Below are positions 30,161 through 35,647 of a DNA stretch of 37,371 bases, piece after piece. Each line of letters begins with the position of its first letter. Within the stretch, counting starts at the first letter, position 1. Where the stretch lies: positions 1 to 37,371 of the forward strand of contig CANNMD010000006.1 in assembly GCA_947505655.1 (NCBI GenBank), read 5' to 3'. The stretch is from Acidimicrobiaceae bacterium. Its GTDB lineage: Bacteria; Actinomycetota; Acidimicrobiia; Acidimicrobiales; Ilumatobacteraceae. The notes below the pieces were generated by a model. It was not told the DNA's origin, ran no database searches, and worked only from the letters and a program-made list of their open reading frames with translations. The position numbers and the translations under genes were made by a program.

Positions 30161-30208
30161 GATTCTCCTGTTCGGATTCTCCGGGTGGGATTGTCCTGTG
30201 GGCCTGTC

Positions 30209-30272
30209 GTCAGATCGTCAGATCGTCAGATCGTCAGATCGTCAGATCGTCAGATCGTCAGACCGTCATCTC
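30209..30272. repeat. octanucleotide tandem repeat GTCAGATC, six perfect plus two degenerate copies
   Basis: Exact copies at 30209-30256, then GTCAGACC and GTCATCTC; lies between the ArsA-like gene and pdtaS. Confidence 0.97.
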
Positions 30273-32759: not shown

Positions 32760-32820
32760 GTTTGTTGAAGACAGTTGGTCAAGGTTCGACCTGTTGTCTT
32801 CAACAAACCCTTTGTTGAAG
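32760..32820. repeat. three-copy inverted/direct repeat with alternative hairpins
   Basis: GTTTGTTGAAGACA (32760-32773), TGTCTTCAACAAAC (32795-32808), TTTGTTGAAG (32811-32820). Confidence 0.95.
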
Positions 32821-34059: not shown

Positions 34060-34797
34060 ATGACTTCGGCTGCAGCCACCTCCGGGATGACACCGGGCGC
34101 GTTCAGTGCGCAAGTCACAGCGATCACCTCAGCATTTGGCGACCCAACGCGGCGCAGCATCTACCTCTACACCCGCGAATCGGGCAACGGCGTCACCGCC
34201 GCACAGGTGGCCGAGCACTTCGGTTTGCATCCCAATGTTGCTCGCCATCACCTCGACAAACTCGCTGCCGGCGGATACGTAGAAGTGGCCGTTGAGCGCA
34301 GCGAAGGCGGCGGGGCAGGTCGGCCGTCGAAGCACTACCGCGCCGCTGCCGACGCAGAGCCACTCGAGTTTCCGGTTCGCAGCGACGATCTCGTACTCAC
34401 CCTGCTCGGCCGTTCGCTCGCGATGTTGCCTCGTGAGCAAGCCGAAATCATGGCCGAAGAAGTAGGCATCGAATACGGGCGCACCATGGCGCTCGCATTG
34501 CAGGGCGCATCCCCCGATGGCGAAGTTGTGCAGCGCTCATTCCGTTCGGCGTTGCACACGGTTGCCGACGCACTCACCGCACACGGTTTCGCTGCACACG
34601 CCGATCAACGCAACAACCAGTTGCGCATCATCAACAACCACTGCCCGTTCGGCGATGTCGCAATCGACAACCCGGTGATCTGCGCGGTAGACCGCGGCAT
34701 GGTCAAGGGAATGCTCAAGGCCTTGTACGGCGACACCGATCCTTCGATCGAGACATCAATACCGCTGGGCGACCAGTACTGCGTTACGTCGTTCTAA
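34060..34797 (+). CDS. SufR/ArsR-like winged-helix regulator with C-terminal cysteine cluster
   Basis: AFGDPTRRSIYLYTRESGNGVTAAQVAEHFGLHPNVARHHLDKLAAGGYVEV...GAGRPSKHYR; C-terminal NNHCPFGDVAIDNPVICAVDRGMVKGMLKALYG...DQYCVTSF. Confidence 0.88.
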   Translation: MTSAAATSGMTPGAFSAQVTAITSAFGDPTRRSIYLYTRESGNGVTAAQVAEHFGLHPNVARHHLDKLAAGGYVEVAVERSEGGGAGRPSKHYRAAADAEPLEFPVRSDDLVLTLLGRSLAMLPREQAEIMAEEVGIEYGRTMALALQGASPDGEVVQRSFRSALHTVADALTAHGFAAHADQRNNQLRIINNHCPFGDVAIDNPVICAVDRGMVKGMLKALYGDTDPSIETSIPLGDQYCVTSF

Positions 34798-34827
34798 ACA
34801 ATCTCCGCACGTCGCATCGCCCATCCG

Positions 34828-34870
34828 CCCCATCTCTGCCCCATCCACCCCGATTCTGCCCCATCCACCC
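34828..34870. repeat. regular CCCC-tract array (G4 motif on minus strand)
   Basis: CCCC at 34828, 34839, 34848, 34859 and CCC at 34868; loops 7, 5, 7, 5. Confidence 0.95.
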
Positions 34871-34879
34871 AGTTTCTGT

Positions 34880-34930
34880 TTGCATGGGCGCGATTTAGGA
34901 CAGCAGGTGTCCCAAATCGCGCCCATGCAA
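34880..34930. repeat. large imperfect palindrome (23-bp arms, 5-nt loop)
   Basis: TTGCATGGGCGCGATTTAGGACA (34880-34902) GCAGG TGTCCCAAATCGCGCCCATGCAA (34908-34930), one mismatch. Confidence 0.97.
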
Positions 34931-34937
34931 CAAGGTT

Positions 34938-34994
34938 GGGGACGCCGGGGCCGTTGGGGACGCCGGGGCGGTGGGGACTACGGCTGGGGTGGGG
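34938..34994. repeat. regular GGGG-tract array (G4 motif on plus strand)
   Basis: GGGG at 34938, 34947, 34956, 34965, 34973, 34986 and 34991; first three loops 5 nt each. Confidence 0.95.
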
Positions 34995-35597
34995 TTAGTG
35001 GCGCTGCTCGAGAAACGGGTCTCCGTACATGTTGTAGCCGTTCTGCTCCCAGAATCCGGGAGCATCTCGGTCACTCAGTTCGAGACCTCGAACCCACTTC
35101 GCGCTCTTCCAGAAATACAGATGCGGCACCACAATGCGCACGGGTCCGCCGTGCACTGGCTCGATGTCTTCGCCTTCGTATGCGAAGGCAACGATGGCTT
35201 CATCGGTGGTGATATCGGCGAGCGGAATGTTGGTGGTGTAGCCGTATTCGGCGTGCTCCATCACATGGGTGGCTCCGGGCTGGACACCAGCAAGAGCCAA
35301 CACATCGCGCACCCGAACACCGGTCCAGGTGGTGTCGAACTTCGACCACTTCGTCACGCAGTGAATGTCGAATGTGGGAGTCACCGATGACATCTGCTTG
35401 AGATCGTCGAGCGTGATGGTGATCTTTTGATCGACGAGGCCAAATACAGTGAGGCTCCATTCGCCCGGCGAATAGCGAGGCACGTCGCCAACGTGCAGCA
35501 CTGGGAAACGATCGGTGAGATATTGCCCCGGAGGCAGCCGAGCGGGATCAATGCCCTTGCTCTTGAGTTCGTTGCGGTTTCGCTGGAAAAAACTCAT
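34995..35597 (-). CDS. sulfite oxidase-like molybdopterin-dependent oxidoreductase
   Basis: LTVFGLVDQKITITLDDLKQM, FDIHCVTKWSKFDTTWTGVRVRDVLALAGV, HGGPVRIVVPHLYFWKSAKWVRGLELSDRDAPGFWEQNGYNMYGDPFLEQRH. Confidence 0.92.
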   Translation of the reverse strand: MSFFQRNRNELKSKGIDPARLPPGQYLTDRFPVLHVGDVPRYSPGEWSLTVFGLVDQKITITLDDLKQMSSVTPTFDIHCVTKWSKFDTTWTGVRVRDVLALAGVQPGATHVMEHAEYGYTTNIPLADITTDEAIVAFAYEGEDIEPVHGGPVRIVVPHLYFWKSAKWVRGLELSDRDAPGFWEQNGYNMYGDPFLEQRH

Positions 35598-35647
35598 CAA
35601 CTCATTCTTGCAGCGAGTCTCTGTTTCGCTCGTCACGGTGATGCAAC

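Follow-up and report, generated by a model that had tools for sequence, protein, structure and literature searches.

The window, which is the whole 37,371-nucleotide stretch of DNA that was analyzed, belongs to a MAG of 2.76 Mb (282 contigs, approximately 85% complete), hereafter called the host. The window contains a 197-bp gap (34798-34994) between two convergent genes. The gene to the left (34087..34797, plus strand, stop at 34797) has a profile match to HTH_20/ArsR-type regulators. The gene to the right (34995..35636, minus strand), whose stop codon TTA starts at 34995, encodes a molybdopterin-binding oxidoreductase (PF00174). An initial annotation labeled these genes as SufR-like and as a sulfite oxidase. 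The right gene is indeed a member of the sulfite-oxidase family, whereas resemblance of the left gene to SufR is weak (29 bits, compared with a cut-off of 178.8).

The gap comprises a palindrome (34880-34930) between a C-rich left flank (34798-34879), which is G-rich if read outward, and a G-rich right flank (34931-34994), which directly abuts the stop codon of the minus-strand gene. The arms of the palindrome (34880-34902 and 34908-34930) are 23 nt each, are 96% complementary and enclose a 5-nt loop. This palindrome ranks first among the inverted repeats of the window, and it carries the core CATGGGCGCGATTTGGGACA-n5-TGTCCCAAATCGCGCCCATG that is common to its family (family 1). The left flank has the tract pattern CCCC-N7-CCCC-N5-CCCC-N7-CCCC-N5-CCC. 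Within it, TCTGCCCCATCCACCC occurs at 34835 and at 34855, a period of 20 (chance expectation, 0.00), and a repeat search of the gap finds a 20-nt tandem unit present three times (34820-34879). The right flank has seven GGGG tracts with loops of 5, 5, 5, 4, 9 and 1, and includes two copies of an 18-nt tandem unit, at 34935 and 34953 (34935-34970). The repeat search and the tract counts thus agree exactly with the initial annotation, which described a C4-tract array, a palindrome with 23-nt arms and a G4-tract array.

The predicted RNA fold of the gap (-107.5 versus -83.7 kcal/mol) is more stable than those of all 200 of 200 dinucleotide shuffles (z = -5.3). The C-rich left flank and the G-rich right flank are largely complementary, and the predicted fold pairs both arrays, which extends the hairpin into one long stem. 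As modeled, the flanks are mirror images of each other and not two independent G4 arrays. A search for a T-tract terminator at the gap found none, as the initial annotation had also reported, and a hairpin with no T-run is not a canonical intrinsic terminator. An Rfam scan of the window matched one tRNA only, and the palindrome has no match in it.

The family-1 palindrome is present in 21 copies in the host genome, nearly all of them outside called genes. These and the other genome-wide statistics are based on sequence searches and on retrieved loci, and the gene calls are codon-usage calls in which single assignments may be wrong. An 11-nt core sequence, GGGCGCGATTT, occurs 38 times in the host, always in inverted pairs at a fixed 28-bp offset, so that no half-site is unpaired; the reversed-pattern control has 0 occurrences. 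Two sister species have approximately 20 and 13 copies. Of 81 genomes searched, just two have the strict family-1 pattern: the host and one sister species (G007). A DNA search of the genus at lower stringency brings in the second sister (G002) and no further member, and the family was not found in 78 other relatives. When an 18-nt half-site was sought among 84,980 species, a scan that possibly does not include the host, matches were found in both sisters, along with two isolated half-sites elsewhere. These two half-sites, in one Anaerolineales and one Myxococcota record, are consistent with chance. These dispersed copies and their conservation in close relatives, which the initial annotation had proposed to look for, exclude low-complexity drift as the origin of the palindrome.

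A less conserved outer motif, CAACNGGGTTTGSGG, has 6 occurrences in the host, all of them adjacent to cores, and it also occurs once at a core-less site in G007. Because this motif stands next to cores, the repeat extends past the palindrome. Neither palindrome family (the second is described below) has an exact match in IMG/VR, which argues against a phage origin; this origin was rejected. A tRNA is nearby at just 1 of 20 loci, and the genes that flank the palindromes have no common functional theme. No further repeated palindromes were found in the retrieved loci, in which the remaining palindromes are unique hairpins. Of 20 family-1 copies, 6 are in convergent gaps; in the window as a whole, 7 of 33 gene pairs are convergent, so that family 1 has no significant enrichment there (p = 0.5). 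Approximately four host copies are located in divergent gaps, and copies in tandem gaps also exist. Bidirectional intrinsic terminators resemble family 1 in that a symmetric hairpin lies between convergent genes. However, family 1 lacks a U-tract, its arm sequence is conserved across unrelated loci, and it is not confined to convergent gaps.

Both sister species are approximately 92-93% identical to the host at the locus in the window. The palindrome is present in the orthologous gap of all three species, although the window genome is alone in having the 20-bp C-array, and indels distinguish the G sides. At 12 orthologous sites of the host and G007, the arms differ at 9 of 480 positions (1.9%) and the 5-nt loops at 17 of 60 (28%). 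At the same sites, the adjacent 60-nt flanks differ by approximately 23%, and sequence 300-700 nt away differs by approximately 5%. Because the arms diverge so much less than loops, flanks and more distant sequence, they are the maintained part of the element, under selection or conversion to a greater degree than the surrounding sequence, most of which is coding. Tandem arrays are found in 10 of 34 flanks, compared with 0.025 expected in shuffles, and their unit differs at each locus. We think that these C/G arrays are fast-evolving, locus-specific duplications of skewed flanks, and not a conserved part.

Loops often differ between species while the arms are unchanged, as in L001 1586-1630 compared with L033 1497-1541, and some orthologous loops look flipped (GCAGN-type versus ACTGC-type).

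The initial annotation emphasized the potential of the two arrays to form G-quadruplexes. It is conceivable that such structures constitute a barrier to replication or transcription and that the palindrome is incidental, and 20 of 34 host flanks do have at least four G3 tracts when read outward, with none having four C3 tracts. However, the other 14 flanks lack four G3 tracts, the C and G arms complement each other and are predicted to fold into one stem, and both sister species retain the palindrome where the left array is absent. The G4 arrays are therefore not supported as a conserved feature, and we consider a G-quadruplex barrier very improbable.

Polarity is shared by nearly all flanks. 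When read outward from the palindrome, flanks contain more G than C in 86 of 88 cases in the three species, whose copies are not mutually independent. This is true of all 52 flanks that face the 3' end of a gene and of 34 of the 36 that face a 5' end; in the host alone, it is true of 37 of 38. Palindrome-free gaps in the host, which serve as a control, exhibit no bias, with G exceeding C outward in 15 of 31 cases at 3' ends and 21 of 53 at 5' ends. Fisher tests that compare palindrome flanks with these gaps, by using the host only, yield p values of 3e-5 and 1e-4. Unlike the palindrome-free gaps, the inward strand is C-rich and G-poor on both sides of the palindrome, and YC dimers occur at 0.296 per nt on this strand versus 0.053 on the outward strand. 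In sequence terms, this composition corresponds to that of Rho-dependent terminators. The conserved feature of the flanks is their outward-G polarity.

Most of the compared family-1 sites are common to the species at approximately 93% identity, which is partly by construction because the comparison was of copies with one another. At each of two host sites, one of the sisters lacks the core. In one case (L003 versus L093, on contig C340 of G007), 48 nt are missing, the outer motif is kept, and at most 1 nt is shared at the junction, which means that there is no target-site duplication. The other case (L017 versus L099, on contig C31 of G002) is not cleanly alignable. Outgroups do not align at these places, and both sites look more like loss of a core than insertion of one. 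In outgroups of the same genus, the gaps lack the family-1 palindrome, contain other, unrelated hairpins and have no strong polarity. Because L099 and L093 retain flank sequence, they represent natural deletion tests of the element.

Near-identical cores dispersed at unrelated loci within one clade, presence or absence at some orthologous sites, and an outer motif that makes the repeat larger than its core might all reflect a miniature mobile element of the MITE or REP type. Such an element would have been spread by a transposase and have no host function, its arms would be recognition sites, and its copies would be kept alike by conversion. We view this explanation as possible but somewhat doubtful. 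A search for Y1_Tnp (PF01797) found no Y1/RAYT transposase in six genus genomes, one of which, the host, is only 85% complete; the control search was positive in 5 of 14 known genomes. Because the host has no unpaired half-sites, no full-length parent is seen, and no autonomous relative with the same ends was found. The clean filled/empty pair (L003/L093) lacks a target-site duplication, many sites are common to species, and the two core-less sites look like losses because they retain outer motif sequence. Moreover, the sole transposase seen inside a copy belongs to the IS30 family, and its element has unrelated ends. The suggestion in the initial annotation of a mobile REP-like element is thus not upheld in the strict REP/REPIN sense, as the sites are mostly shared by descent.

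REP and REPIN sequences associated with RAYT (PMC3116915, PMC2817692) are comparable to family 1 in being short, intergenic, dispersed, hairpin-forming inverted repeats that are targets of insertion sequences. However, REPs usually have more than 100 copies per genome (PMC2817692), whereas family 1 has approximately 20, is a nearly perfect symmetric palindrome and has no RAYT in the six genomes searched. Its mirror-image C/G flanks are also outside the definition of a REP.

An insertion sequence of 1.2 kb is found inside a family-1 palindrome in G007 (contig C206; L067 2392-3618). Its transposase is of the IS30 family (NF033563, 292 bits, cut-off 80), and the element has terminal inverted repeats GGCGGAATCAA...TTGATTCCGCC and a 3-bp target duplication, TCT. 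The same IS30-family element is joined to palindrome arms on contigs C40 and C47 of G002. Five further G002 palindromes hold GGCGGAAT exactly at the position expected of the IS left end, and these scars are explicable as deletion of the IS between the CAACTG of its end and the CAACTG of the palindrome center. On contig C90 of G002, the right end of the IS is present, and one arm has been deleted at a CTCGCC microhomology. Altogether, the element or its scars are found at 8 of the 13 family-1 sites seen in G002; the host MAG, at approximately 85% completeness, yielded no IS30 copy. The positions of these elements and scars show that an IS30-family insertion sequence lands preferentially in the family-1 palindrome. 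Because IS30 prefers nearly palindromic hot spots (PMC9333248), such insertion fits the habits of its family. Insertion sequences inside copies of a dispersed palindrome are also known from REPs, as with IS1397, ISKpn1, IS621 and ISPpu9 (PMC1525189, PMC8450116). The REP-targeting elements that have been surveyed belong to the IS3, IS110, IS4, IS256 and IS5 families (PMC1525189), unlike the element here. The IS30-family element therefore adds an IS family to those that use dispersed palindromes, and its scars record past insertions.

Inverted-repeat and genome searches revealed a second palindrome family, with a copy in the window at 32760..32808 (GTTTGTTGAAGAC-n23-GTCTTCAACAAAC). Family 2 is unrelated in sequence to family 1, has a constant length of 49 bp and is present in about 20 copies per genome. 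Exact copies number 15, 18 and 13 in these three species; a search of 78 other relatives gave none. The 13-bp outer arms and a GGT/ACC pair are invariant, and inner 4-nt segments vary independently in each arm. Outward G exceeds C in 43 of 44 family-2 flanks, and 15 of 20 host copies are in convergent gaps, compared with 7 convergent pairs among the 33 in the window. A candidate autonomous element with family-2 arms 3.8 kb apart was rejected, as it is actually two complete copies, in all three species.

Two unrelated palindromes in one small clade therefore share the same symmetric flank composition, which is missing from palindrome-free gaps. Neither descent nor drift readily explains this likeness, which points to a shared function at gene boundaries. 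Our preferred, although tentative, interpretation is that the palindrome within its C/G mirror flanks is a symmetric, lineage-specific element that marks transcription boundaries, which we regard as quite plausible. The initial annotation had put forward a bidirectional barrier to transcription or replication and a protein-binding architecture besides the mobile element, and of these readings a two-way boundary of transcription would fit best. A transcript from either side would first yield a C-rich, G-poor stretch, which is the type of sequence on which Rho loads. The palindrome would be met next, perhaps as an RNA hairpin that causes pausing and caps the 3' end against exonucleases, perhaps as DNA on which a dimeric protein sits and obstructs RNA polymerase, or both. 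Transcription would then end at the palindrome in both directions, possibly assisted by Rho, and the unrelated family 2 would have this role at other gene ends, most of them convergent. This model would account for the polarity, for its independence of gene orientation and for a second family with the same design. It is less easily reconciled with the lack of clear convergent enrichment in family 1, with the copies in divergent gaps or with the two core-less sites in sister species.

Rho-dependent terminators with a 3'-protecting stem-loop (PMC12350095) similarly have a C-rich, G-poor RNA stretch beside a stable structure. Rho-terminated RNAs are trimmed back to stable structure (PMC12350095), which would suit a C-tract followed by a hairpin. 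Unlike these terminators, family 1 is two-sided and repeats one palindrome sequence, and the role of Rho in it is putative.

The arms look conserved at the level of their sequence, which goes beyond what a plain hairpin needs, and covariation in the stem is thin. Double changes are found in two family-1 pairs, with one more at G002 C21:15056, and in none of family 2. This combination suggests recognition of the arms by a protein, or homogenization of copies, rather than selection on pairing alone, and for the same reason we retain both a hairpin and a protein barrier in the boundary model. Alternatively, the palindromes might be DNA-level sites for a nucleoid- or chromosome-organizing protein or a global regulator that binds an inverted repeat of fixed spacing, and transcription ends would merely be where such sites are tolerated. 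Invariant arms around a variable loop of constant length, the fixed outer arms and GGT/ACC of family 2 next to its independently varying inner segments, and the divergent and tandem copies are all consistent with such a site. However, a protein site alone explains neither the mirror C/G polarity nor the preference of family 2 for convergent gaps, and no candidate protein emerged; we consider it unlikely. In a bolder form of the boundary model, a dedicated arm-binding protein might stall polymerase and Rho, acting on the C-rich RNA, might finish termination. Two unrelated palindromes, both within mirror-image C/G flanks, would then provide a standardized two-way boundary at dozens of gene ends in one lineage, and the IS30-family element would have become adapted to settling at these low-harm sites. 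This scenario is speculative, and we doubt that it holds in full.

Literature searches for palindromic intergenic repeats in Acidimicrobiia and for a repeat-based bidirectional boundary did not reveal a match in the library searched. If the proposed termination is true, then the approximately 40 sites per genome, along with the core-less sites, would constitute a natural replicated experiment on how transcription ends without T-tract terminators in GC-rich bacteria.

Other repeats were observed in the window. An 8-bp unit, TCGTCAGA, forms a tandem run at 30207-30268, just downstream of a gene end, and a 9-bp tandem unit, GCGGTCATT, is located at 2099-2197 within a predicted gene.
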